From the NCBI GenBank assembly GCA_031261165.1, contig JAISJU010000163.1:1-34578 (forward strand): a stretch of 34,578 nucleotides of DNA, given 5' to 3'. The stretch comes from Prevotellaceae bacterium (GTDB lineage Bacteria; Bacteroidota; Bacteroidia; Bacteroidales; Paludibacteraceae). A program made the translations under genes and the position numbers. The notes beneath the pieces were generated by a model. That model did no database searches. It was not told the origin of the DNA and worked only from the letters and a program-made list of their open reading frames with translations. This document shows positions 4,177 through 33,935 of this stretch, in pieces; positions within the stretch are counted from its first letter, which is position 1, and every line of letters starts with the position of its first letter.

Positions 4177-4196
4177 TATATTTCTTAAAAAATAAA

Positions 4197-4224
4197 AAAA
4201 GCGGATTGTAAAAAATCCGCTTTT
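4197..4224 (-). terminator. Cassette A terminator (AAAGCGGATT type)
   Basis: An 11-bp stem AAAAGCGGATT / AATCCGCTTTT with a six-base loop and T-runs on both strands. It follows the stop codon of the lipoprotein gene at 4242. The same stem recurs at 12236-12261 and 33965-33989, always at the 3' end of a cassette of this family. Confidence 0.88.
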
Positions 4225-4241
4225 ACTAAAAGCACAGTTCT

Positions 4242-4985
4242 CTATTTAAGAGTATATTCAATAGTCATAGTTTTTCTTAAAGAGCCTTCTTCATACATTT
4301 TGCAGCTTGTTGGGTAGCCATTCTCGTTATAAACATATTCAAGTTTCCAGCCTAAATCTCCATCTGTTAAAGCATTATTTACTACCGCAATATCTGACCA
4401 CTGATAAAGTTCTGTTATTTTATACCATTGAGGTATATTGACATTTTTAAATACACCATTTTTATTGTCATAGGTATATTCATAGGTATTTTCATAGGTT
4501 TTATATCCTACTTTTGTTTGTTTAGTTTGTTTTATCATATTTCCTACTGCATCATAAGTGTAAGAATAAGAATCCAGGTCTGAATTATTAGCAACAATCC
4601 TATTATCTTTTAAAACATATTCATAAGTAGATTTACTTCCTGTGGCAATCCTTTCGACGGCATTTTCTTTGTATTCATAGGTAATCGTACGACTAGACAG
4701 TGGGTCTTCATTAAGTTTTACTACCTGAGCAAGAGTACCATCTGAATTATAAGTGTAAGTGTTAGTTGTATAACTGTTTTTTTGTTCTGTAACTCTTCTC
4801 TGATTATCATAAGTGAATGTGGTTGTTTCGCCATCATATATTATCTTGCTTGGAAGATATACCTGTGTATTGTTGTTGTTTTCCCCATCGTCTTCTTTAT
4901 TATTTCCTTTGTCATCATCTTTATTGCAAGCACTGAAAACCACAGCCAGTGCTAAACTTAAAAAAATCATTAAATACTTTTTCAT
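4242..4985 (-). CDS. Surface-type lipoprotein with YD-like repeats
   Basis: A 247-residue protein with a lipoprotein signal peptide whose lipobox ends FSAC at Cys20. The next residues NKDDDKGNNKEDDGEN are acidic, resembling the lipoprotein export signal of Bacteroidota that sends proteins to the outer face. The rest consists of beta-strand-like repeats such as TYTYNSDGTL, YSYTYDAVGNMIKQ and YVYNENGYPT, similar to YD/RHS-type repeats and to DUF4595-like proteins. The function is unknown. It is the second gene after structured RNA A and has its own leader with an RBS hairpin and a possible promoter. Base composition is clearly more AT-rich than in the neighbouring core genes. It is a distant relative in style of the larger protein at 26088-27602. 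Confidence 0.85.
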   Translation of the reverse strand: MKKYLMIFLSLALAVVFSACNKDDDKGNNKEDDGENNNNTQVYLPSKIIYDGETTTFTYDNQRRVTEQKNSYTTNTYTYNSDGTLAQVVKLNEDPLSSRTITYEYKENAVERIATGSKSTYEYVLKDNRIVANNSDLDSYSYTYDAVGNMIKQTKQTKVGYKTYENTYEYTYDNKNGVFKNVNIPQWYKITELYQWSDIAVVNNALTDGDLGWKLEYVYNENGYPTSCKMYEEGSLRKTMTIEYTLK

Positions 4986-5001
4986 AACTCTTTTGTTTAA
5001 C

Positions 5002-5021
5002 GTCCACTCCTTTAAGCAGAC
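5002..5021 (-). promoter_or_regulatory. Leader hairpin presenting AAAGGA in its loop
   Basis: On the minus strand GTCTGC and GTGGAC pair (with G-T wobbles) around a loop holding TTAAAGGA, followed by GTTAAACAAAAGAGTT and the ATG at 4985. Nearly the same leader, with a perfect stem, precedes the gene at 33340. It may be a conserved translation-initiation element shared by cassettes A and E. Confidence 0.6.
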
Positions 5022-5058
5022 AAAAATTTAATTTTTTAATTTGTTTGTTTTTTAAAAT

Positions 5059-5079
5059 TTTGTCATCGTGACAAATTTA
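5059..5079 (-). promoter_or_regulatory. Possible promoter -7 box with overlapping inverted repeat
   Basis: On the minus strand TAAATTTG (5072-5079) matches the -7 consensus. It is overlapped by the inverted repeat TTTGTCA-TCG-TGACAAA (5059-5075), which would cover the start of transcription and could be an operator for the lipoprotein gene. No good -33 box is visible, so this is tentative. Confidence 0.4.
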
Positions 5080-5093
5080 AGATGTAGCCTTCG

Positions 5094-5363
5094 TTAGTAA
5101 TAACCTTTGCCTTTACAGCCGGTACATTTACCTGAACCTTTACAAAGACTACATTTTTTGTTTTTAGTAGCCGAACTATAACCTGTTCCGTTACACCAAT
5201 TACAACGTCCTGTTCCGTAGCAACTACGACAAGTTATTTTCTCTTTTCCTCCCGAAGAACTCCCGCCTGAATTGCTGCTTGAATCTTCGGATTTTTCACA
5301 AGATGAGATTACTATTGCGCTCATCATTATGACAATAAATGTAAACCATTTGATTTTTTTCAT
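5094..5363 (-). CDS. Small lipoprotein with DnaJ-type CxxCxGxG zinc-finger repeats
   Basis: An 89-residue protein with a lipoprotein signal peptide (lipobox ISSC, Cys22) followed by EKSEDSSSN, a Ser/Gly linker and a C-terminal block of four Cys pairs: CRSCYGTG, CNWCNGTG, CSLCKGSG and CTGCKGKG. This is the CxxCxGxG pattern of the DnaJ central zinc domain. In DnaJ it binds two zinc ions and unfolded protein in the cytoplasm; here the signal peptide predicts an exported, lipid-anchored form. No J domain is present. It is the first gene after structured RNA A, about 100 bases from its terminator. The role is unknown. The frame is well supported by the regular cysteines. Confidence 0.85.
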   Translation of the reverse strand: MKKIKWFTFIVIMMSAIVISSCEKSEDSSSNSGGSSSGGKEKITCRSCYGTGRCNWCNGTGYSSATKNKKCSLCKGSGKCTGCKGKGYY

Positions 5364-5464: not shown

Positions 5465-5496
5465 TAAAAAAAGCACGGACTTCACTTTCCGTGCTT
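5465..5496 (-). terminator. Intrinsic terminator overlapping RNA A stem
   Basis: The stem AAGCACGGA (5488-5496) / TCCGTGCTT (5471-5479) is followed on the minus strand by a run of T. Its 5' arm shares AAGCAC with the 3' arm of the long hairpin's basal stem, so the two structures exclude each other, as in an attenuator. Confidence 0.8.
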
Positions 5497-5669
5497 GAGG
5501 TATTCGACGACCTGTTATTACAAATAAGTAAGCCCGTGAAAAACACGAGTATCAATTACTTACTCTTGTAATAACTTTGAAAGTGTCGAATTTTCAAGCA
5601 CAAGAATATGATACTTTTTTCTACTAAAATGTGCGTATCAATTTACGCGGTTTTTATTTCATAGGCAAA
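5465..5669 (-). ncRNA. Structured RNA element, copy A
   Basis: On the minus strand the element begins with TTTGCCTATGAAA (5657-5669) and a small hairpin GCGTA..TACGC (5633-5648). A long interrupted hairpin follows (5491-5601): GTGCTTGA/TCAAGCAC, ATTCGAC/GTCGAAT, a perfect 10-bp GTTATTACAA/TTGTAATAAC, AAGTAA/TTACTT and an apical stem CTCGTG-TTTTT-CACGGG. An intrinsic terminator comes last. Copies B-E have the same order of helices with different sequences. It lies between the HepT/MntA pair and the exported zinc-finger protein. It may be a leader or a free small RNA. It matches no RNA family I know. Confidence 0.75.
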
Positions 5670-5733: not shown

Positions 5734-6090
5734 TTATTCAACCATCTTTTTTAATTGCTTTTCCAATTCGGGCAAACTATTATGAATAATCTGCCACACT
5801 TCTTCGGCATCAACGCCAAAATAATTGTGCGCTAAAATATTTCTGAAACTTCTGATTTTATACCATTCTATTTCCGTTTCCGATTTGTTGATTAATTCTT
5901 CCGAAAGTTTTTCGACCATTTCGCCGATAACAATAAAATTCATCAAACTTGCATCAAATGCCTGACCATTATCCGAGAATTCGTCTGCATTCGCAAATGA
6001 AGAACTGTATTGCTTGATTTTATCAATAGCGTCAAGCATATTCATCAAACAAAAATAATCTCTTCGGTTGGTATTATACATAGACGGCAT
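5734..6090 (-). CDS. hepT: HepT-like HEPN ribonuclease toxin (DUF86)
   Basis: A 118-residue HEPN protein. Members of this family are RNases that act as the toxin of HepT-MntA pairs. The RX4HXY motif is present as RNILAHNY (about residues 83-90): the Arg/His pair is catalytic, and in studied systems the Tyr is adenylylated by MntA. The C-terminus EEVWQIIHNSLPELEKQLKKM is typical. The start at 6090 overlaps mntA by 17 bases; a second ATG at 6081 would overlap by 8. The pair is translationally linked. Structured RNA A lies directly downstream. The same C-terminal segment survives as a fragment behind the MNT gene at 27958. Confidence 0.88.
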   Translation of the reverse strand: MPSMYNTNRRDYFCLMNMLDAIDKIKQYSSSFANADEFSDNGQAFDASLMNFIVIGEMVEKLSEELINKSETEIEWYKIRSFRNILAHNYFGVDAEEVWQIIHNSLPELEKQLKKMVE

Positions 6091-6373
6091 CGGCTAAAAT
6101 TTGTTGGCGAAACAAAGGTTTTATATATTTTTCCCTGCAAATATCTACCGGAATATGAAAAACAGACTGTATTTCTTTGCGCAAAAAATCTTTTATATTG
6201 GTCAAATTCGGCGTATTGTCTTCAAATTCCACCAATAAGTCCAAATCGCTTGCGGGCGTTTGCTCGTTGCGGGCATACGAGCCGAAAATACCGAGTTTTT
6301 TCAAATGATATTTTCGACTGATGTCCTGTTTGTTTGCCGACAAATAGCGTAATATTTGATTTTGTGCAAGCAT
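6074..6373 (-). CDS. mntA: MntA-like minimal nucleotidyltransferase antitoxin
   Basis: A 99-residue minimal nucleotidyltransferase with the motif GSYARNEQTPASDLDLLVEF (about residues 31-50), the GSxxR..SDxDLxV signature that holds the metal-binding Asp pair. In HepT-MntA systems it adenylylates and silences the HEPN toxin. It overlaps hepT, and both lie between 39-bp direct repeats. A near copy at 32580-32879 differs at only 7 of 99 residues but has no HEPN partner, so one arose from the other recently. A phage-defence role is known for some relatives and would be inference here. Confidence 0.9.
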   Translation of the reverse strand: MLAQNQILRYLSANKQDISRKYHLKKLGIFGSYARNEQTPASDLDLLVEFEDNTPNLTNIKDFLRKEIQSVFHIPVDICREKYIKPLFRQQILADAVYV

Positions 6374-6381
6374 TTTGTCTT

Positions 6382-6420
6382 TTTGTTTGCAAAGTAATAC
6401 AATATATTTTACATAGACAA
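6382..6420. repeat. 39-bp direct repeat, right copy
   Basis: Second copy of the repeat at 5681-5719, 38 of 39 bases identical. It lies just upstream of the mntA start (6373) and so also carries whatever promoter the pair uses. No exact -7 consensus is visible in it. Confidence 0.85.
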
Positions 6421-7918: not shown

Positions 7919-8806
7919 TTAGTTTAATACAAAGTTATAAGTAATCGTACCCATTTCCACCTTATCGCCTTTGGTAAATTTGGCGGCGCGTGCCGCTTTC
8001 AACACGGCGTTGCGGGTGGCTTGTTCGGTAATGGTGGTGCCTCTGCCGATGGTTGCCTCTGTTACTTTGCCGTCTTCGTCAACCGTAATATCCACCACGA
8101 TAATACCTTCTACCACCGCGTTGTCTGCGGGCTTGGGCAAAGCCTCCGTTTTTCGGTTGCCGAGTTTAAAGGAAGTGCCGGCACCTCTGCCTGCGCCTGT
8201 GCCGCTACCCGTTCCGCTGCCGTTGCCGCCGCCCGAGCCGCTACCTGTGCCTGCACCTGTGCCGCTACCGGTACCCGTGCCGCTGCCTGTACCTGTTCCG
8301 CCACCTGTACCACCACCGCTACCGCTGTTGGCAAACGAGCCTTGTGTGCGCGAGCGTATCTCGGCAATGCGGCGGGCGGTTTCTTCTTCTTTGCGCCGCT
8401 GCTCGGCAAGACGCGCATCTTCGGCACGCTGCCGTTCCTGTTCCTCGCGGCGGCGTTGCTCGGCGGCAGCGCGTTCTATGGCTACGGATTCGTCAAATTG
8501 TTGTGTAGCATATTGCTGTACGGGCGTGGGCGTTGGGGCTGCGGGTTTTGGGGCGGGTGCTACGGGCGTTTCCAATGCCTTTATAGGCTCGGGGCGATAA
8601 AAATTCTCACCGCTGTTGCCGCCTCCGCCACCACCGCCACCGGCAAATGATTGCTCTATTTCGGCAAGGCTCAAATCACCGTAACCTTCCGACTCTTCCG
8701 TGTATGAAAATGTTACAAGAAAAAGCAAGAGCAAAATGAGTATTCCGCAAGTAATGCTGCCGATGCCGCCGTATATTTCCGATTTTTCTAACTTCTTCAC
8801 AATCAA
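7919..8806 (-). CDS. TonB/TolA-like energy-transducing protein with Gly-rich linker
   Basis: A 295-residue envelope protein. An N-terminal membrane helix (about 15-33) is followed by a proline/alanine stretch and a highly charged coiled segment (EQRRREEQERQRAEDARLAE, about 117-136). Next comes a long Gly/Ser/Thr linker (about 160-205), and then a TonB C-terminal domain (IIVVDITVDEDGKVTEATIG...AARAAKFT, about 233-275). The order helix-linker-TonB fold and its place after exbB and exbD indicate the third part of a proton-driven transducer reaching the outer membrane. In Bacteroidota this set serves as a TolA-like or TonB system; which one cannot be decided. The linker's repetitive GC-rich DNA (8200-8330) is prone to length change. 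Confidence 0.92.
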   Translation of the reverse strand: MIVKKLEKSEIYGGIGSITCGILILLLLFLVTFSYTEESEGYGDLSLAEIEQSFAGGGGGGGGNSGENFYRPEPIKALETPVAPAPKPAAPTPTPVQQYATQQFDESVAIERAAAEQRRREEQERQRAEDARLAEQRRKEEETARRIAEIRSRTQGSFANSGSGGGTGGGTGTGSGTGTGSGTGAGTGSGSGGGNGSGTGSGTGAGRGAGTSFKLGNRKTEALPKPADNAVVEGIIVVDITVDEDGKVTEATIGRGTTITEQATRNAVLKAARAAKFTKGDKVEMGTITYNFVLN

Positions 8807-10173: not shown

Positions 10174-10488
10174 ATGAATCAGCAAATTTTTGATGAAATC
10201 CGCACTTTGAAACGGCAAATCTTGCCGAATGAAAAAGTGATTTTGTTTGGCTCGCAGGCACGCGGCGATGCCCGACCGGACTCGGATTGGGATTTGTTGG
10301 TGTTGCTGGATAAAAAAACAGATATTACTCAGGAAGAGGACACTGAAATTGGTTATCCATTCACAAAATTAGGTTGGCAATATGGCATATACATAAGCGT
10401 TTTATTATATACCATTAATGAATGGAATAAAAGAAAAATATCGCCGTTTTATAAAAATGTAACGGAAGACGGTATCGAAATAAAATAA
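10174..10488 (+). CDS. Minimal nucleotidyltransferase (MNT), cassette B
   Basis: A 104-residue MNT protein with the motif GSQARGDARPDSDWDLLVLL (about residues 26-45), including the DxD metal ligands. It differs strongly from the MntA-like protein at 6074 and belongs to another subgroup. The HEPN gene follows after 7 bases on the same strand, so the two form a typical MNT/HEPN toxin-antitoxin pair. In such pairs the MNT usually counters the HEPN partner. A good promoter lies 40 bases upstream. The pair is directly followed by structured RNA B. Confidence 0.9.
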   Translation: MNQQIFDEIRTLKRQILPNEKVILFGSQARGDARPDSDWDLLVLLDKKTDITQEEDTEIGYPFTKLGWQYGIYISVLLYTINEWNKRKISPFYKNVTEDGIEIK

Positions 10489-10495
10489 AAATGTT

Positions 10496-10897
10496 ATGGG
10501 CTTAACAAGTGAAGAAAGGACGGCTATTGTTCGCGTAAGATTGGGAAATGCGAAAAAAACATTTGCCGAAGTATCTATTTTGATGAACAATGCTTTGTGG
10601 CGAACTGCTGCAAACCGCTTGTATTATGCCTGTTTTTATGCTGCAAGTGCTTTGTTGATAAATGACGGACATCAGGCACATACACATAATGGTGTTATCA
10701 GTTTATTGGGAATGCACTATATTTCAAAAAAGATAATTAACGAAGATTTGGGCGACATTTATCGAAAATTATTTAATCTTCGTCAAAAAGGAGATTATGA
10801 TGATTGGACTGTTGTAAAAGAGTCTGATTTATTGACGCTTATAGAGCCTGCCGAACAGTTTATTAAAACAATAGAAGAATTAATCACAAATAAATAA
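10496..10897 (+). CDS. HEPN domain protein paired with MNT, cassette B
   Basis: A 133-residue HEPN protein of the PF05168-like type: RTAANRLYYACFYAASALLI (about residues 37-56) is its core, with the usual NRxYYAxFxAA pattern. It is not a DUF86/HepT protein, so cassette B carries a different HEPN class from cassette A. It starts 7 bases after the MNT gene with which it should form a complex. Some HEPN proteins are ribonucleases. The RX4HXY motif of HepT is not seen, so activity is uncertain. Its stop codon is only 4 bases before the conserved TTTGCCTATGAAA motif of RNA B. Confidence 0.88.
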   Translation: MGLTSEERTAIVRVRLGNAKKTFAEVSILMNNALWRTAANRLYYACFYAASALLINDGHQAHTHNGVISLLGMHYISKKIINEDLGDIYRKLFNLRQKGDYDDWTVVKESDLLTLIEPAEQFIKTIEELITNK

Positions 10898-10901
10898 ATT
10901 A

Positions 10902-11118
10902 TTTGCCTATGAAATAAAACCGCGTAAATTAATACGCACATTTTAGTAAAAAAAGCGTTTTTTTTATTGTTCTTGGTCTTCTAAGTTCCACATTTTAGAC
11001 GATTATATACATTCAAGAATAAGTTTAGAAAAACGTCGCTTATGCGGCGTGGTTTTGACTTATGAATGTATAGGTCGTGGAACACCTTGAAGACAAAAGG
11101 TTAATTCCGCGCTTTTTT
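10902..11118 (+). ncRNA. Structured RNA element, copy B
   Basis: It begins with TTTGCCTATGAAA (10902-10914) and the hairpin GCGTA..TACGC (10922-10937). The long hairpin 10976-11094 has the stems GTCTTC/GAAGAC, GTTCCAC/GTGGAAC, ATACATTC/GAATGTAT, ATAAGT/ACTTAT and an apical CGTCGC-TTAT-GCGGCG. It ends with AAAAGGTTAATTCCGCGC and six T. The segment AAAAGGTTARTYCC is shared with copy D. Stem sequences differ from the other copies while helix order is kept, which argues for selection on structure. No promoter of its own is evident; it may be read from the MNT/HEPN promoter. Confidence 0.75.
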
Positions 11119-11136
11119 ATGTCCATTTTTTTAAAA

Positions 11137-11298
11137 TCAGACGACGGTAAAACCGCCACAAAATATGAAACAGAATTGCGACTGTTCCCAAAAAATGCAG
11201 AGTGAAATTGCAAAAACACTCAAATCATATTGCAACGAAAGCAGAAATTCGTAAAAAACGGGCAGTTTATTTCCTACGAAAAGCCATAAGAGTAGAAG
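11137..11298 (+). ncRNA. Second conserved RNA domain (pseudoknot type), copy B
   Basis: About 160 nt, highly similar to 16771-16931 (minus) and 33138-33293. Helices: CGGT/ACCG, AACAG/CTGTT, GAGTG/CACTC, ACGAA-AGCAGAAA-TTCGT (11235-11252) and a 3' CTAC/GTAG. The loop of the third helix carries TTGCAA (11208-11213), which can pair with TTGCAA at 11230-11235 as a pseudoknot. In copy E the pairs change together (see that entry). It ends 27 bases before the next start codon, so a role in the 5' leader is likely. Confidence 0.8.
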
Positions 11299-11325
11299 AA
11301 AAAATTTTAAATTATTTATTTTTAT

Positions 11326-11547
11326 ATGAAATCTCATCAGACAAATTCAAAAACATTTGAGGAATTGACTTATGCAGAGCAGGCAAAATCAATTTCAGCA
11401 CAAATTCTTTCATTAGAAAAAGCAATTATTGCTCACAAAAGACGAGCAGTAGAAGAAAACAGAAATGTTGCGGAAAAGCACTCGCAACTTATTGAGCAAG
11501 TACAAAGAATGGTTGAACGCTTAAATTCAGAAGAGGAGGTACTATGA
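11326..11547 (+). CDS. Small helical protein of cassette B
   Basis: I recognise no family. The 73-residue product has no signal peptide and is predicted to be almost wholly alpha-helical and charged, with heptad-like spacing (ISAQILSLEKAIIAHKRRAVEEN and LIEQVQRMVERLNSEEE), so a coiled coil is likely. It is the first gene after RNA B and the second RNA domain. Its stop overlaps the next start (ATGA at 11544), so the two are translationally coupled and their products may interact. The AT-rich composition matches the cassette, not the core genes. The coding frame is credible because of the coupling, although the protein is small. Confidence 0.7.
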   Translation: MKSHQTNSKTFEELTYAEQAKSISAQILSLEKAIIAHKRRAVEENRNVAEKHSQLIEQVQRMVERLNSEEEVL

Positions 11548-12212
11548 GTAACAGTAAAACCGTAGAATGTCCTTATTGCAGGCAACCGATTCACGAATAT
11601 GCTGTAAAATGTCATTGGTGCAATTCCGATACAAGTGCAATGGCAGAACAGAACCGCAAAAACAATAAAGGAGGATGGTTGTATTTCATTATTATTCTTG
11701 TTATAGTCGGCGGTATTAAAAGTTGTTTTGGTTGCGATGATGAAAAAACTTCGGAAACTAATGTTCGTACAGAACAAACAACGAATAATACAACTACAGA
11801 AGAAACACCAGAGCCAACTGCAGAATATACAAAAGAAGAAGAAACGCCAACCTTACAAGAAACACACATTGAAATCAGCAATAGCGGTTATACAGAAGAT
11901 AGTAAAGAAATAGAACAATCGGAACAAAATATGACACAAGAAGAAATTGTTTTACAAGAATTTGAGTTGCAGGCAACTGCGTTAGAAAAAATAAAATTCA
12001 ACAAAAAAGCAGCGGAAACATATATACAACAAATTGCTATTTATAAAGGAGAGCCGTACTATTCAAAAATCATTGATTTTGTGGTTAAAACTAACAAAAG
12101 TTTAAGTAAAGAATGGGCAAAAAACGGCGAGTATTTTGAAAACAAGATAGAATTTTACGAATCATATATATCTGATTATAAGCAGATATTGAAAGATAAA
12201 ACTGAAAGATAA
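11544..12212 (+). CDS. Zinc-ribbon membrane protein of cassette B
   Basis: A 222-residue protein of unknown function. The N-terminus has a zinc ribbon with two Cys pairs (CPYCRQPI..CHWCNSD, about residues 9-28). One membrane helix (GWLYFIIILVIVGGI, about 44-58) and a Cys pair just after it (SCFGC) follow. Next is a Thr/Glu-rich linker, and then a helical C-terminal domain from about 130. No signal peptide precedes the ribbon, so the ribbon is probably cytoplasmic and the larger part outside. A strong Shine-Dalgarno stretch GAGGAGG lies before the start, inside the upstream gene. A perfect terminator follows at 12236. Confidence 0.8.
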   Translation: MSNSKTVECPYCRQPIHEYAVKCHWCNSDTSAMAEQNRKNNKGGWLYFIIILVIVGGIKSCFGCDDEKTSETNVRTEQTTNNTTTEETPEPTAEYTKEEETPTLQETHIEISNSGYTEDSKEIEQSEQNMTQEEIVLQEFELQATALEKIKFNKKAAETYIQQIAIYKGEPYYSKIIDFVVKTNKSLSKEWAKNGEYFENKIEFYESYISDYKQILKDKTER

Positions 12213-14435: not shown

Positions 14436-14465
14436 ATATTGATTTTGATATGTAAAAAAACAAAA

Positions 14466-14775
14466 ATGCCAACCAACAAAATACAAATTCGCAACAGCAC
14501 CGCCGATTTTCTTGTTTTTACGAGGCAAAACGGCGAAGACGGAATTGCTGTGCGCATAGAAGACGAAAATGTGTGGCTACGGGCAGAAGCAATGGCAACG
14601 CTTTTTCAAAAAGACCGCAGAACTATTCAAGAACATCTGAAAAATATTTTTTCTTCAGGGGAATTGGAAGAAATTTCAGTATGCCGGAATTTCCGGCATA
14701 CTGCCGGAGATGGAAAAACGCGCCTGCTGGAAAGATTATCAAAACCGATGTGTCAATCGCAAAAAAATATTTGTA
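14466..14775 (+). pseudogene. rhuM-family remnant with internal deletion and frameshift
   Basis: The frame from ATG 14466 gives the N-terminal part of a RhuM-family (virulence protein) sequence: IQIRNSTADFLVF, EDENVWLRAEAMATLFQKDR, HLKNIFSSGELEE and FRHTAGDGKT. It then breaks off. In another frame, bases 14727-14775 encode AGKIIKTDVSIAKKYL, which resembles the C-terminal end of the same family, before a stop. About two thirds of the usual length of over 300 residues is missing. The remnant lies between nadK and fmt with no mobile gene nearby. RhuM proteins often accompany defence islands; this copy cannot be functional as a whole. Confidence 0.8.
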
Positions 14776-14833
14776 GCAATTTGAATTGACAGAATGTTGA
14801 ATGAGGTAAATTTAGATAAGTAAAACAAAGGCA

Positions 14834-16381: not shown

Positions 16382-16693
16382 TTAATAGTTAGACCCAAAT
16401 CGTCCACAATATTCCATTTTATACTCAACATCATAAATAGCATTAAGACCTCTACAATCACCATAACAAGCTGTTGTTGCGTGTTTCGTTTCTCCAGCAT
16501 CAATAGTTACTGTCATCCACTCCGTCCAACTATTACCTATGCGCACTCGATATGTTACAGCTACGCACTCTTTGCTTTTATTCGTCATTACAATACTTTT
16601 GCCATCGCTTGGTATACTTCTTAGAACTGTTTGTGCATTTGCACTAAGCCCCAAGCCAATCACGGCTACCAAAATCATTAAAAACTTTTTCAT
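16382..16693 (-). CDS. Small secreted protein of cassette C
   Basis: No family recognised. The 103-residue precursor has a signal peptide (MKKFLMILVAVIGLGLSANA, cleavage after ANA). The mature part is about 83 residues with four cysteines (KECVAV, TACYGDCRG, MEYCG) that may form disulfides, and beta-strand-like segments (YRVRIGNSWTEWMTVTIDAG). It resembles a small beta-sandwich, but I cannot assign it. It is the only gene of cassette C and follows structured RNA C and the second RNA domain on a leader of about 430 nt. An AGGAGAT stretch lies shortly before the start and is a plausible ribosome-binding site. Confidence 0.8.
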   Translation of the reverse strand: MKKFLMILVAVIGLGLSANAQTVLRSIPSDGKSIVMTNKSKECVAVTYRVRIGNSWTEWMTVTIDAGETKHATTACYGDCRGLNAIYDVEYKMEYCGRFGSNY

Positions 16694-16770
16694 AATTTAT
16701 ATCTCCTATTATTTTTTCCAATTGCCCAAATTGTTTGTTTTTAGTTAAAGGGCATTGAAATTATTACTCC

Positions 16771-16931
16771 TTCTACTCGTATGGCTTTTCGTAGGAAATA
16801 ATCCGCCCGTTTTTACGAATTTCTGCTTTCGTTGCAATATGATTTGAGTGTTTTTGCAATTTCACTCTGCATTTTTTGGGGAACAGTTACAATTCTGTTT
16901 TATATTTTGTGGCGGTTTTTACCGTCGTCAG
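16771..16931 (-). ncRNA. Second conserved RNA domain (pseudoknot type), copy C
   Basis: Minus-strand copy, nearly identical to 11137-11298. Helices CGGT/ACCG, AACAG/CTGTT, GAGTG/CACTC and ACGAA-AGCAGAAA-TTCGT (16815-16832) are all present. The pseudoknot partners TTGCAA lie at 16854-16859 and 16832-16837. After the AAAAGCC loop the 3' helix CTAC/GTAG is kept. It ends 78 bases before the start at 16693. Confidence 0.8.
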
Positions 16932-16951
16932 ATTTTCAATTTTTGACAAAT

Positions 16952-17127
16952 AAAAAAGCGGACTTATCATCCGCCTTGAAGTCTTAGGATACTATACCAC
17001 AAACAATAAGCCCGCATTTCTGCGAACAGTTATGTTATTCTTGTGGTTTTGAAGTTTCCTAAGTTTCAAGGCAAGAATTCAATAAGTCCTCCCAAAAACT
17101 CAACATTTTGAGCCTTCGGAATTGCCC
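16952..17127 (-). ncRNA. Structured RNA element, copy C
   Basis: From a predicted start near 17127 the RNA forms a small hairpin CTCAA-AATG-TTGAG and the long hairpin 16973-17072. That has GCCTTGAA/TTCAAGGC, CTTAGGA/TCCTAAG, CCACAA/TTGTGG, AATAA/TTATT and an apical TTCGCA-GAAA-TGCGGG. A terminator AAGGCGGA/TCCGC with six U follows. The terminator's 5' arm reuses AAGGC of the basal stem, as in copy A. GGACTTA before the hairpin can also pair with TAAGTCC in the terminator. This copy has its own good promoter and no MNT/HEPN gene, so the RNA does not depend on them for expression. Confidence 0.78.
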
Positions 17128-26087: not shown

Positions 26088-27602
26088 TTATTTCAGTTCT
26101 TTTTCCGTTTTTACCGTGCCGTCTGTATAAATTATATGTTTGATAATAATACCCTTTGTAGTGGGTTTTGCAGGTGTTCCGTTCAGCGTAAAATATTTTT
26201 CTTTTTGGATTTGTTTTTCTGCCGAAACAGCAGGTAATGCAGATAAAATTTCGGTATAGTAATAAGTTGTTACAGCAGATAATACCCAATCATCTGTATC
26301 CCAAGAATAAGTTTTTTCCAATTGAATATTACCGTTGTTGTATTCAAATTCGCTTTTAGAGCCAGACCAACGACTACCATATTTATCATCCCGCCACTGT
26401 CTCGAAGATGACGATAATAAATTTTTGTCATTATCATAAGAATATTCTCTGATGTATGTTTCTTGCCACTGTTCCAAATCAGAATTATAGATAGTATATT
26501 CAATATCGGATATTACATTATTGTTATTGTCATATTCACGGGTATATTTTGGTTCAGTGCCTCTACTAATCCATTTTTGTGTCGTATAATTCCAAGCATA
26601 AGAAGCCGATAATGTATTGTTACCTTTTGCATCATAAGCACTTTCTATTTTTATTTTTCTTGTTTCTACCCATTCTTCGACTTCATAATTAAAAGTTGTT
26701 GTCGTTTGTAACGTTATTTTGCCATTGGCATTATATTCATATTCTTGTGTGTTTTTACTTTTTGTTTCCCAAATATTTAACTCCACATTCCATTGGTAGG
26801 AAATGCTTGTTATCACATTGCCATTTGCATTGCGTTCATATTCGGTTTTAGTTTTTTCTTCTATTTCCCAATCGTTTAAACCGTTATTCCAAACATAACG
26901 AGTAAATATGTCGCCATTCTCATTATAAATAGTTTCGGTTTTAATTTTTTCTTCTATTTCCCAATCTTTTAATTCATCATTCCAAATATAACGAGTAAAT
27001 ATGTCGCCATTCTCATTATAAATAGTTTCACCTTTCGTACCTTCCCATTTTTCAGTTTCAGTATTTTTCCAACGGTCTGCACGCATTATTTGTCTGCCGG
27101 AAGCATTAAATTCATACTCGTGTATTATATAATATTGGAATTCTTCTAATTCCGAGTTCCAAGTAGCAACTGCATAATATGTCATATTATTGTTACTGTC
27201 ATACTCACGTACTGATTTAGAGCCTCTTCTCCAATCTTTTAATTCACTGTTCCAAGTATAAAAAACTTCTAATAATTTATTGCTATCATAATCCCTTTCG
27301 TATTTATAATTTCCGACCCAATCTTGCAAATTTGTGTCCCAATGATAAGAACTTTCTAACTTCATATTTCCATTCGTATCATATTCTTCATATTTTTTGG
27401 TATCTTCTATCCAAGCGGTACGCCCCCGTTTGTATGCTGTTGTTGTTTTATTTCCGTCTGTATCATAACTAAACATCGTTTTAACCGAACTTCCTGCTTC
27501 ATTTTTGGTTATAACAGAATCCAAACGCATAGTGCTTTGCGCCCACAAAGCCGTTGTGCCTAATACACAAATCATTAAAGTTGTAAAAATTTTCTTTTTC
27601 AT
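26088..27602 (-). CDS. Secreted repeat protein with YD-like and Trp-rich repeats, cassette D
   Basis: A 504-residue secreted protein. A signal peptide (MKKKIFTTLMICVLGTTALWA) is followed by about ten imperfect repeats of 31-45 residues. These alternate a YD-like part (EYDSNNNMTYY, EYEYNANGKITLQ) with a W-rich part (YTWNSELKDW, YIWNDELKDWEIEE). Two neighbouring repeats are almost identical in DNA with a 93-base period, showing recent duplication. The C-terminus (KYFTLNGTPAKPTTKGIIII and on to VKTEKEL) resembles a type IX secretion sorting domain; this is an inference. The function is unknown. It is the only gene of cassette D and follows RNA D after a 70-base leader with no second RNA domain. 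Confidence 0.85.
   Translation of the reverse strand: MKKKIFTTLMICVLGTTALWAQSTMRLDSVITKNEAGSSVKTMFSYDTDGNKTTTAYKRGRTAWIEDTKKYEEYDTNGNMKLESSYHWDTNLQDWVGNYKYERDYDSNKLLEVFYTWNSELKDWRRGSKSVREYDSNNNMTYYAVATWNSELEEFQYYIIHEYEFNASGRQIMRADRWKNTETEKWEGTKGETIYNENGDIFTRYIWNDELKDWEIEEKIKTETIYNENGDIFTRYVWNNGLNDWEIEEKTKTEYERNANGNVITSISYQWNVELNIWETKSKNTQEYEYNANGKITLQTTTTFNYEVEEWVETRKIKIESAYDAKGNNTLSASYAWNYTTQKWISRGTEPKYTREYDNNNNVISDIEYTIYNSDLEQWQETYIREYSYDNDKNLLSSSSRQWRDDKYGSRWSGSKSEFEYNNGNIQLEKTYSWDTDDWVLSAVTTYYYTEILSALPAVSAEKQIQKEKYFTLNGTPAKPTTKGIIIKHIIYTDGTVKTEKELK
26852..27032. repeat. 93-bp tandem repeat in the cassette D gene
   Basis: Two neighbouring units, starting near 26852 and 26945, share long identical blocks such as TTTTTTCTTCTATTTCCCAA and ACGAGTAAATATGTCGCCAT. 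They encode adjacent 31-residue protein repeats. The DNA identity suggests recent duplication by slippage or unequal recombination. Confidence 0.8.
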
Positions 27603-27672: not shown

Positions 27673-27890
27673 AAAAAAACGTGGGACTAACCTTTTTCGT
27701 TCTCTTGGTCTTCCACAACCATAACAGCATTAAGTTAAACTCACGCAACGACGTGCGTATTGACTAACTTATCCCTGCTGTTTTCAATAAGTGGAAGTTT
27801 GAGAACAAGAATAAAGCAACGCTTTTTAAAATAATAAGATTTTTGCGTAAATTTACTGTTACGCGGTCAGTTTGTTTTGTTTCATAGGCA
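27673..27890 (-). ncRNA. Structured RNA element, copy D
   Basis: On the minus strand: TGCCTATGAAA (27880-27890), the hairpin GCGTAA..TTACGC (27845-27864), then the long hairpin 27699-27806. That has GTTCTC/GAGAAC, CTTCCAC/GTGGAAG, AACAGCA/TGCTGTT, AAGTT/AACTT and an apical ACGCA..TGCGT. The 3' end AAAAAGGTTAGTCCCACG and seven T resembles copy B. GAACG of the basal stem can also pair with CGTT before the U-run, giving a weak attenuator arrangement. It precedes the repeat-rich secreted protein and follows the MNT gene at 27958. Confidence 0.72.
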
Positions 27891-27900
27891 TTATGTATTA

Positions 27901-27968
27901 TCAATTTTCAATCAGTTTAATAATTTCTGTTTTTAATACAGGCAAATGTTTTTTATTCTATCTTCCAT
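27901..27968 (-). pseudogene. HEPN partner remnant behind MNT gene
   Basis: From ATG 27968, which overlaps the MNT gene end, a few codons are open. In a shifted frame the sequence then encodes KHLPVLKTEIIKLIEN and a stop at 27901-27903. This resembles the last residues of DUF86/HepT proteins (compare LPELEKQLKKMVE in the gene at 5734). About 100 codons of the partner gene are missing. It looks like an internal deletion joining its first and last codons. Confidence 0.65.
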
Positions 27969-28260
27969 AAATCATAATTTTTGAATTTTCAATGCTTTTT
28001 CGTAAGTATGAATTTCTAATTGGTTGTTCCACAAGCAAATCCACAGGTCTGCCAAATACACTTTCGAGTGAATACTTGAAATCAAAATAATTGAGAAAAT
28101 GGTCTTTTACAGCCGCTTTATCAAAATCCACTATCAAATCCACATCGCTTTTATCATTGAATCTATCGGTCAGCACAGAGCCGAATGCAAACAATTTTGT
28201 TACATTATATTGTTTGCATAATCCCGAAATTTTAGATATGTATTTATCAAGAAAATTCAT
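27958..28260 (-). CDS. MNT-type nucleotidyltransferase, cassette D
   Basis: A 100-residue MNT protein with the motif FAFGSVLTDRFNDKSDVDLI (about residues 24-43) holding the DxD pair. The C-terminal LESVFGRPVDLLVEQPIRNS is typical of the MntA group. The partner HEPN gene survives only as a fragment at 27901-27968. A -7 box TATCTTTG lies on the minus strand at 28265-28272, only 4 bases before the start codon, so the transcript may be leaderless. It precedes RNA D on the same strand. An antitoxin without a toxin has no obvious selected role, yet the frame is intact. Confidence 0.88.
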   Translation of the reverse strand: MNFLDKYISKISGLCKQYNVTKLFAFGSVLTDRFNDKSDVDLIVDFDKAAVKDHFLNYFDFKYSLESVFGRPVDLLVEQPIRNSYLRKSIENSKIMIYGR

Positions 28261-32360: not shown

Positions 32361-32579
32361 ATCAATAAAACCCTCAGTTGAACAAGGAATAAAAAAAATG
32401 GGGAAAAGTATGCTGTAAATCAAACAAATCCGAAATTGATATAAAAGAAATCTTTTCAAATGATTGAATAACTTTGCTGTTATTTTTTAGAAATTTTGCT
32501 GCGAGAATTTTTTTAGAAAAAATCAAAAAGAAAATTTGCATAATCAAAAAATAATAACAATCTTTGCAACAAAAAAATA

Positions 32580-32879
32580 ATGCTTGCACAAAATCAAATA
32601 TTAGGCTATTTGTCGGCAAACAAACAGAACATCAGCAGGAAATATCATTTGAAAAAATTGGGTATTTTCGGCTCGTATGCCCGCAATGAACAAACGCCTG
32701 CAAGTGATTTGGATTTGTTGGTGGAATTTGAAGACAATACGCCGAATTTGACCAGTATAAAAGATTTTTTGCGCAAAGAAATACAGTCTGTTTTTCATAT
32801 TCCGGTGGATATTTGCCGAGAAAAATATATAAAACCCATTTTCCGCCAACAAATTTTATTTGATACTATATATGTATAA
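32580..32879 (+). CDS. Orphan MntA-like nucleotidyltransferase, cassette E
   Basis: A 99-residue MNT protein, identical at 92 of 99 positions to MntA at 6074-6373, including GSYARNEQTPASDLDLLVEF. The differences lie mainly at the C-terminus (LFDTIYV against LADAVYV). No HEPN gene follows: only 10 bases separate its stop from the TTGCCTATGAAA motif of RNA E. A near -7 box AATCTTTG is at about 32560-32568. This is a recent duplicate of the cassette A gene that lost, or never received, its toxin partner, yet has kept an intact frame. Confidence 0.9.
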   Translation: MLAQNQILGYLSANKQNISRKYHLKKLGIFGSYARNEQTPASDLDLLVEFEDNTPNLTSIKDFLRKEIQSVFHIPVDICREKYIKPIFRQQILFDTIYV

Positions 32880-32889
32880 TATAATTAAA

Positions 32890-33116
32890 TTGCCTATGAA
32901 ACATTAAATGCGTAAATTGATACGCACATTTCAAGTTTGAAAAAGACATTTTAGATTATTCTTTCTTACAGAAAAGATTTGGCGATTTTAACGATAGAAA
33001 GAGTTTAAGTTAGAATGTTCACGCATTGCGTGGACTTATTACTTATTCTGTTCTATCGGGTTACGCCAAATTACCTCTGTAAGCGGGATACTTCTAAAAA
33101 AGTACCACGCTTTTTT
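32890..33116 (+). ncRNA. Structured RNA element, copy E
   Basis: It begins TTGCCTATGAAA (32890-32901) and GCGTA..TACGC (32910-32925). The long hairpin 32965-33083 has CTTACAGA/TCTGTAAG, ATTTGGCG/CGCCAAAT, CGATAGAA/TTCTATCG and an apical TTCACGC-ATT-GCGTGGA. The terminator-like stem GCGgGaTACTT / AAGTAcCaCGC plus six T follows at 33084-33116, adjoining the AAG of the basal 3' arm as in copies A and C. It precedes the second RNA domain and two small exported-protein genes. Confidence 0.76.
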
Positions 33117-33137
33117 ATTTGTCCAAATTTCAAAAAT

Positions 33138-33293
33138 CGACGACAGTTAAACTGCCACAAAATATGAAACAGAATTGCAACTGTTCCCCAAAAAATGCGA
33201 AGTGAAACTGCAAAAACACTCAAATCACAGTGCAGGGATAAGCAGGAATATCCTTAAAAATGGGCGGTAACTCTCGAAAAGCCAACGAGTAGA
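33138..33293 (+). ncRNA. Second conserved RNA domain (pseudoknot type), copy E
   Basis: The most diverged of three copies and therefore the most informative. Helix 1 changes CGGT/ACCG to CAGT/ACTG. The pseudoknot changes TTGCA/TGCAA to CTGCA (33208-33212)/TGCAG (33231-33235). The hairpin ACGAA/TTCGT becomes GGATA/TATCC (33236-33253) around the kept loop AGCAGRAA. The 3' helix becomes CTCG/CGAG around AAAAGCCAA. Each change keeps pairing. It ends 46 bases before the start at 33340. Confidence 0.82.
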
Positions 33294-33304
33294 GAAAATT
33301 AATT

Positions 33305-33339: not shown

Positions 33340-33636
33340 ATGAAAAAAGTATGGATTATTTTAATTAGCCTGTTTCTAATTAATGGGTTATGTTTGGCAG
33401 AAGATGCAAGTACTACTAAAAGTACTACTACAACAACATCTTCAAGTTGTGCAACTGCTACTGCGAAAGCACCTGGATATTCTAAATCAGTAGAAACTTG
33501 TACAAATAAGGACTCTAAAGGCAACGTTACAGAGAAAACAGTAAAGGCTTGTACAACAACTGGTGGAACTGTGGCTGGTAATGGTGGTACTAAAACAGAA
33601 TGTACAACAAAAACGACAACTTATCAAAAAAAATAA
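33340..33636 (+). CDS. Small Thr-rich secreted protein of cassette E
   Basis: No family recognised. The 98-residue precursor has a clear signal peptide (MKKVWIILISLFLINGLCLA, cleavage before ED). The mature part of about 78 residues is very rich in Thr, Ser, Lys and Gly, with four Cys (SCATA, ETCTNK, KACTTT, TECTTK), and is probably extended or of low complexity. It follows the second RNA domain and the AAAAGGA leader hairpin. The next small exported-protein gene starts 50 bases downstream on the same strand. Its sequence has nothing in common with the payloads of the other cassettes except export and small size. Confidence 0.78.
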   Translation: MKKVWIILISLFLINGLCLAEDASTTKSTTTTTSSSCATATAKAPGYSKSVETCTNKDSKGNVTEKTVKACTTTGGTVAGNGGTKTECTTKTTTYQKK

Positions 33637-33686
33637 AAATTTAAAAACCGATGAGTTCAATGGGATATAACCGAGCAAAAATTACG

Positions 33687-33935
33687 ATGAAAAATTTATT
33701 AAAGAAAATCGTATTTATAAGTTTATTTATGGGGGCTCTTTCCGCTAATAAGGCAAGCAATACTGATAGTCCAGTTTCAACACTAATACAAAGAGATGAG
33801 CCAAAGAAAGAGCCAAAGGCACCGGAAACACCAAAGCCAAAAGCACCAAAGACACCAGAGCCAAAGCCATCACCAGAGAAACCAAAGCCACAATCACCAG
33901 AGAAACCAAAAGAACCAAAACCGTGTGTAAGGTAA
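33687..33935 (+). CDS. Small Pro/Lys-rich exported protein of cassette E
   Basis: An 82-residue protein from the ATG at 33687, which gives a clean signal peptide (MKNLLKKIVFISLFMGALSA). The open frame begins at 33651, but the earlier 12 codons would spoil the signal. The mature region is a run of PKxPE/PEKPK repeats (EPKAPETPKPKAPKTPEPK), which probably forms an extended polyproline-like stalk, ending in CVR. Such segments can span the periplasm or cell wall; no domain follows here. It is the last gene of cassette E, ending just before the AAAGCGGATT terminator. Confidence 0.72.
   Translation: MKNLLKKIVFISLFMGALSANKASNTDSPVSTLIQRDEPKKEPKAPETPKPKAPKTPEPKPSPEKPKPQSPEKPKEPKPCVR

Follow-up and report, generated by a model that had tools for sequence, protein, structure and literature searches.

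Five RNA copies in the window

The window, meaning the whole stretch of 34,578 nucleotides that was analysed, contains five copies of a structured RNA (A to E) clustered within 34.6 kb. The copies, their helices, and the neighbouring features are:

5629-5662, minus strand: box upstream of copy A, with the micro-ORF ATGAAATAA (5654-5662) and the outer-helix strand TACGCACAT (5629-5637)
5607 to 5466, minus strand: RNA copy A, from ATTCTTG to the U-run, covariance model match of 123.6 bits
5594-5601/5491-5498, minus strand: P0 of copy A
5585-5591/5502-5508, minus strand: P1 of copy A
5566-5575/5514-5523, minus strand: P2 of copy A
5556-5563/5524-5531, minus strand: P3 of copy A
5544-5549/5533-5538, minus strand: P4 of copy A
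5510-5513/5498-5501, minus strand: pseudoknot stem s of copy A
5488-5496/5471-5479, minus strand: local stem of copy A
5466-5472, minus strand: U-run of copy A
4190-5363, minus strand: genes behind copy A, a region ending in a terminator-like hairpin (4190-4231)
5094-5363, minus strand: small Cys-rich lipoprotein behind copy A
4242-4985, minus strand: lipoprotein behind copy A with a weak RHS-repeat match
10909-10917 and 10933-10941, plus strand: micro-ORF ATGAAATAA and TACGCACAT upstream of copy B
10969-11118, plus strand: RNA copy B, located by the covariance model, without a local terminator stem
11129-11310, plus strand: second leader segment behind copy B, 82-94% identical to those behind copies C and E over 170-180 nt
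11544-12212, plus strand: first long gene behind copy B, 222 aa
17129-17136, minus strand: promoter-like TATCTTTG at copy C
17078 to 16952, minus strand: RNA copy C, covariance model match of 103.8 bits
17065-17072/16973-16980, minus strand: P0 of copy C
16991-16994/16979-16982, minus strand: pseudoknot of copy C (s, TAGT; s′, ACTT)
16382-16693, minus strand: gene of a secreted 103-aa protein behind copy C
27859-27885, minus strand: micro-ORF of copy D
27812 to 27673, minus strand: RNA copy D, covariance model match of 54.4 bits, without a local terminator stem
27718-27721/27706-27709, minus strand: pseudoknot of copy D (s, TGGT; s′, ACCA), a compensatory change
26088-27602, minus strand: secreted repeat protein behind copy D, 504 aa, DUF3836 match
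32896-32907 and 32921-32929, plus strand: micro-ORF ATGAAACATTAA and TACGCACAT upstream of copy E
32958-33116, plus strand: RNA copy E, covariance model match of 42.0 bits
32965-32971/33077-33083, plus strand: P0 of copy E; the local stem begins at 33081-33085
33340-33636 and 33651-33935, plus strand: two small genes behind copy E with signal-peptide-like N-termini

The 222-aa protein behind copy B has zinc-ribbon-like pairs of cysteines and one transmembrane stretch (both recognized by eye), and no Pfam match to it was found. The micro-ORFs in the upstream boxes of copies A to E include ATGAAATAA, ATGATATAA, and ATGACATAA, of which ATGATATAA is identical to the lambda bar minigene. The second leader segment, about 180 nt long, precedes the start codon behind copies B, C, and E (11129-11310, 16763-16939, and 33108-33298) and contains small hairpins. 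Its 3′ part resembles the Rfam DUF805 RNA, as do members of the segment elsewhere in the genome.

Copies A, B, D, and E are each directly preceded by MNT nucleotidyltransferase genes of the same orientation (5734-6373, 10174-10897, 27958-28260, and 32571-32881), with the assignment of ORF 27958-28260 made by eye, and HepT/HEPN partners lie beside them at two of these sites. The MNT genes 6072-6382 and 32571-32881 are 90% identical. The MNT/HEPN toxin-antitoxin pair was rejected as an integral part of the arrangement, because it precedes these four copies in the window but is not generally found at copies elsewhere. Positions 8177-8332 contain a 12-nt repeat in nine copies, which encodes a low-complexity stretch inside an ORF beside ExbB/ExbD-like genes (TonB-like). 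A short ORF at 14439-14789, flanked by NAD kinase-like and formyltransferase-like genes, resembles by eye a truncated RhuM/Fic-type gene.

Structure and distribution of the RNA family

Copies A to E belong to a widespread family of structured 5′ leaders, about 150 nt long, in the class Bacteroidia. The covariance model R1 was built from nine copies of the genome that contains the window, using a hand-built secondary structure. The model has 34 matches at E ≤ 0.011 in this 3.04-Mb genome, and two further copies (C2 and C160), which score lower in the model, were identified by DNA similarity, giving a total of at least 36. The family is present in 63 of 150 sampled relatives, with up to 18 copies per genome, and is sparser in other families of the class. 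Among 296 genomes drawn across the phylum, 15 are positive, and those outside the order mostly contain one to three copies. The pattern of the apical hairpin (P4) alone was found in 77 contigs of named genomes, and the whole structure is present in all 77. These contigs belong almost exclusively to Bacteroidales (Rikenella, Millionella, Alistipes, and many MAGs), with one from Salegentibacter. No family in Rfam 15 matched the P0-P4 RNA at the gathering or relaxed thresholds, and no match to it was found in plasmid and phage collections. The family is large and apparently undescribed.

The consensus, read 5′ to 3′, consists of ATTCTTG, P0, GAAA, P1 (7-8 bp), a bulge with TTTCAA, P2, and GATAAGT (P3). 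The second half consists of the P4 hairpin (G)CUCACG...CGUGGGC, P3′, P2′, AGGU, 1-2 nt, P1′, ACCU, and P0′, after which a 12-nt 3′ arm leads into the U-run. In an alignment of 63 sequences, which had been fitted to the structure, 94.9% of the pair cells contain standard pairs and 576 are double-changed, compared to 155 ± 12 after shuffling and no more than 63 in slid controls. The AGGU and ACCU segments form a pseudoknot outside the model that also covaries (10 double-changed cells compared to 1.8), with the variants TGGU/ACCA, AGGC/GCCU, GGGC/GCCU, and UAGU/ACUU. The linker in hand-parsed copies is mostly 1 nt long when P1 has 7 bp and 2 nt long when P1 has 8 bp, a geometry that would be expected of a kissing-type pseudoknot. 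Every copy examined is predicted to form a very stable long hairpin, with energies of −39 to −56 kcal/mol for A to E.

The DUF805 RNA (RF03081/RF02914) is found in the same leaders as the P0-P4 RNA, where in several copies it lies ahead of the start codon and 3′ of P0-P4, but is a separate 68-nt element that does not overlap with P0-P4. Besides this RNA in the second leader segment, the Rfam scan matched only the DUF3800-VIII RNA (RF03075, 66 bits) in one cassette, where it lies 3′ of the gene of another copy (L061, 1570-1635, minus strand). The 6S-flavo and Bacteroidales-1 RNAs (RF01685 and RF01693) are structured RNAs of Bacteroidetes (PMC2864571), and neither of them was matched by the scanned sequences, whatever the threshold reported.

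Competing pairings ahead of the U-run

The first-pass annotation proposed that the basal 3′ arm of the long hairpin in copies A, C, and E also forms the 5′ arm of a terminator. In copy A, AAGCAC (5491-5496) indeed belongs both to the basal 3′ arm (5491-5498) and to the 5′ arm of the terminator (5488-5496), whose partner is 5471-5479, and the stem has a predicted folding energy of −13.2 kcal/mol. The segment AAGGC of copy C (16973-16977) is likewise shared by the basal 3′ arm (16973-16980) and the local stem AAGGCGGAU/GUCCGCUUU (predicted −11.8 kcal/mol). An overlap also exists in copy E, but it comprises merely AAG (33081-33083), and the pairing is hardly exclusive, because the predicted minimum-energy fold holds both six basal pairs and the local stem (−11.0 kcal/mol). 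The overlap of 6, 5, and 3 nt is thus strong in A and weak in E, and no comparable local stem was found in copies B and D. Counted as a stem of −5 kcal/mol or lower that takes in 2 nt or more of the basal arm, a stable overlapping local stem is present in 37 of 118 non-redundant family members. Forty rounds of linker shuffling gave 20.4 ± 3.9 such members and never more than 29. The excess over chance is thus modest, and the overlap is not shared by the family as a whole. Copies A, C, and E, which had been regarded as unrelated sequences, are homologous members of one covarying family.

It is unlikely that the RNA switches through its basal 3′ arm (P0′), with this arm pairing either in P0 or in the local terminator stem. 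Such a role would agree with the overlaps and stem energies of copies A, C, and E, and with the better fit of the 3′ arm to its own local partner than to those of other copies (−7.8 compared to −5.9, 0 of 5000 permutations). However, the exclusive pairing, which is realized to varying degrees in these three copies, is restricted to a minority of the family and is absent from B, D, and many distant genera, and most of P0 coexists with part or all of the stem in the predicted folds of C and E.

The competition that is conserved is between the apical helix P3/P4 and a duplex in which the P4 3′ strand pairs instead with the 3′ arm before the U-run. The 12 nt ahead of the U-run are complementary to the 3′ strand of P4/P3. 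The arm pairs with the P4 3′ strand of its own copy at −13.1 kcal/mol, compared to −10.0 kcal/mol with those of other copies (0 of 5000 permutations, a test that retains some effect of shared ancestry), and the preference was also found separately within the genome of the window and within other genomes. The P4 3′ strand is the best partner of the arm anywhere in the RNA in 104 of 118 non-redundant copies, compared to 47 for shuffled arms (maximum 58). The arm-P4 duplex and the apical hairpin that would have to be opened are nearly equal in energy (−14.3 and −15.7 kcal/mol); the duplex of copy D is weak (−6.3). A conserved U-G pair in P4, found in 38 of 62 sequences, weakens P4 relative to the arm duplex. 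The pair also points to the transcribed strand as the one that is folded.

The RNA is enclosed by an outer helix, in which an upstream strand of the TACGCACAT type pairs with the sequence just past the U-run. The two strands covary (0 of 5000 permutations, again with some effect of shared ancestry retained), and in copy A TACGCACAT can pair with ATGTGTGTATG, directly after the U-run. Since the helix needs sequence past the U-run, selection appears to act on transcripts that extend beyond the U-run.

The promoter motif TAnnTTTG, the Bacteroidetes −7 motif, lies within 150 nt 5′ of the RNA at 75 of 107 loci (shuffled 12.3). Separate promoters of the downstream genes, which would have spoken against a switch, were looked for, and the motif occurs between the U-run and the start codon at just 9 of 101 loci (shuffled 5.1). 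The downstream genes therefore seem to depend on read-through. By a crude criterion, 48 of 98 copies have a micro-ORF consisting of ATG, zero or one codon, and a stop ahead of the RNA, about a twofold enrichment (shuffled 23.6 ± 4.1). Copies E, L133, and L166 have a 3-nt insertion in the micro-ORF that keeps the frame.

The family thus combines mutually exclusive pairings, one of which abuts the U-run, with a conserved structured domain and an upstream promoter. On balance, we favour a cis-acting transcription attenuator with two near-isoenergetic states, and we infer that the two folds would control termination and read-through. The transcript would start upstream and contain a short leader, often with a two-codon micro-ORF ATG-xxx-stop, followed by the long hairpin P0-P4, in which P1 would be locked by the 4-bp pseudoknot stem AGGU/ACCU with its linker of 1-2 nt. 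The pseudoknot would be followed by the 12-nt 3′ arm, the U-run, and, about 70 nt further on, a gene usually encoding a surface or secreted protein. In the first state, the apical P3/P4 would be formed and the 3′ arm free, so that RNA polymerase would read through. In the second state, the 3′ arm would capture the P4 3′ strand, and the resulting helix abutting the U-run would favour termination. The loop of this helix would span about 50-70 nt, and the 3′ arm may invade slowly, since it meets a very stable long hairpin that has folded before it. The local stem that reuses the basal arm may serve some lineages as an added second terminator. The best candidate for a sensor or protein site is the P3/P4 domain, which is strongly conserved. 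A NusG paralogue (LoaP/UpxY-like) was rejected as the cognate antiterminator, as the genome of the window and genome G024 each contain one NusG, compared to about 36 and 18 copies of the RNA.

The switch between terminated and read-through transcription suggested by the first-pass annotation agrees with the leader position and the conserved exclusive pairings ahead of the U-run, but the particular competing pair that was named is not supported; the attenuator-like principle is right, and the named pairing serves only part of the family. The RNA resembles transcription-attenuating riboswitches and leader attenuators in that it lies in a 5′ leader, can form alternative helices, has a U-run ahead of the gene, and occurs in many copies per genome that would govern a regulon. 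It differs from the known ones in a fold outside Rfam, a pseudoknot with a 1-2-nt linker inside a long hairpin, a competition that uses a strand of the apical hairpin, and an association with varied surface proteins instead of one pathway.

Genes behind the RNA and their replacement

The first gene begins a median of 70 nt past the U-run. A crude predictor assigns a signal-peptide or lipoprotein N-terminus to 75 of 107 such genes, compared to 96 of 329 other ORFs (29%; p = 1e-13). The downstream genes encode BspA-type LRR, Big_2, BACON, Kelch, FGE-sulfatase, Lcl_C, and DUF3836 proteins, and also DNA methylases and LytTR regulators.

Two genomes of the same genus are 96% identical over a stretch that begins with the upstream gene, includes the RNA (identical in both), and ends at the sixth codon of the gene that follows. 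Past this codon, a 134-aa gene in one genome corresponds in position to a 484-aa gene in the other, and collinearity returns before the next core gene (89%). Genes are also swapped directly 3′ of the RNA at L156/L184, L164/L180, and L167a/L181, and after a small conserved gene at L158a/L175, whereas no swap was found in the comparisons L154/L173, L155/L174, L163/L201, and L168/L169. The gene is replaced at 5 of 9 orthologous sites in same-genus pairs. The breakpoints vary between 7 and 90 nt past the U-run, and one is located inside the signal-peptide codons. At one further site, promoter, RNA, and gene are absent together from the sister genome, where the genes on either side are direct neighbours. 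The RNA could tentatively be regarded as a sizeable, undescribed switch class that provides a plug-in expression site in Bacteroidia, in which surface and secreted protein genes would be exchanged behind an RNA that keeps its chromosomal position, so that one signal sensed by the RNA would govern dozens of unrelated surface genes; we consider this less likely than not.

Replacement of the gene directly behind the RNA while the RNA and its flanks are kept, the site that lacks promoter, RNA, and gene together, and the clustering of five copies in the window would also be compatible with a site that serves mainly for the recombination or insertion of gene cassettes, with the folds acting on DNA or within a mobile element. 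This is quite improbable: neither a recombinase beside the copies nor a shared 3′ junction motif was found, the breakpoints lie at differing distances past the U-run, the gene is retained in some orthologous pairs, and the P4 U-G pair points to folding of the transcribed strand. Integron attC sites are hairpins conserved in fold and variable in sequence that lie beside exchangeable genes, and have RYYYAAC and GTTRRRY boxes, a position at the cassette 3′ end, and an integrase. The RNA family is similarly fold-conserved, sequence-variable, and located beside exchangeable genes. However, it sits 5′ of the gene and has RNA-type features (U-run and G-U pairs). An attC identity was rejected, as neither the GTTRRRY/RYYYAAC boxes (by eye) nor a common 3′ junction was found, and no integrase was seen in the window.

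A stand-alone or UTR-derived small RNA that always ends at the U-run, with the genes behind it incidental or expressed from elsewhere, would explain why a complementary sequence precedes the U-run, and Bacteroides does have multicopy small RNA families. Nevertheless, it has a low probability, given the rarity of promoter motifs between RNA and gene, the short distance to the start codon, the strong association with secreted proteins, and the covarying helix that requires sequence past the U-run. FopS of Bacteroides thetaiotaomicron belongs to a multicopy paralogous RNA family connected with outer-membrane proteins, has a single-stranded 5′ seed and a terminator hairpin, and acts in trans (PMC11697453). 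The P0-P4 family is also multicopy, paralogous, linked to outer-membrane proteins, and found in Bacteroidales, but a FopS-type trans-acting small RNA was rejected because the structure differs and no Rfam match was found. The very stable long hairpin predicted in all copies examined could indicate a constitutive stabilizing 5′ leader without switching; this is highly unlikely, as it would not explain why the 3′ arm has stayed complementary to the P4 3′ strand, or why the two states are so close in energy.

If the attenuator model is correct, as many as 36 or so genes, most of them encoding surface or secreted proteins, would be under a common RNA element with two competing folds in Bacteroidales of the gut, rumen, and environment, and in cultured strains such as Rikenella microfusus. 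Surface proteins that are hard to annotate would be recognizable by this element as a regulon, and the element would represent a candidate riboswitch or attenuator class. The pattern of fixed RNA and swapped gene offers a concrete route for studying the turnover of surface genes.

In Flavobacteria-like relatives, several copies are located 5′ of SusC/RagA outer-membrane receptors, and one is 5′ of an ECF sigma factor. A divergent gene of a small Cro/C1-type regulator often lies about 130-170 nt from the RNA in these relatives (L280-L298). The regulator was rejected as part of the mechanism, as it is divergent upstream in many of them but was not seen to be general. Locus L281 contains two RNA copies 8.4 kb apart (1955-2100 and 10337-10482), which share a 977-nt stretch with 90% identity and have differing divergent HTH regulators upstream.
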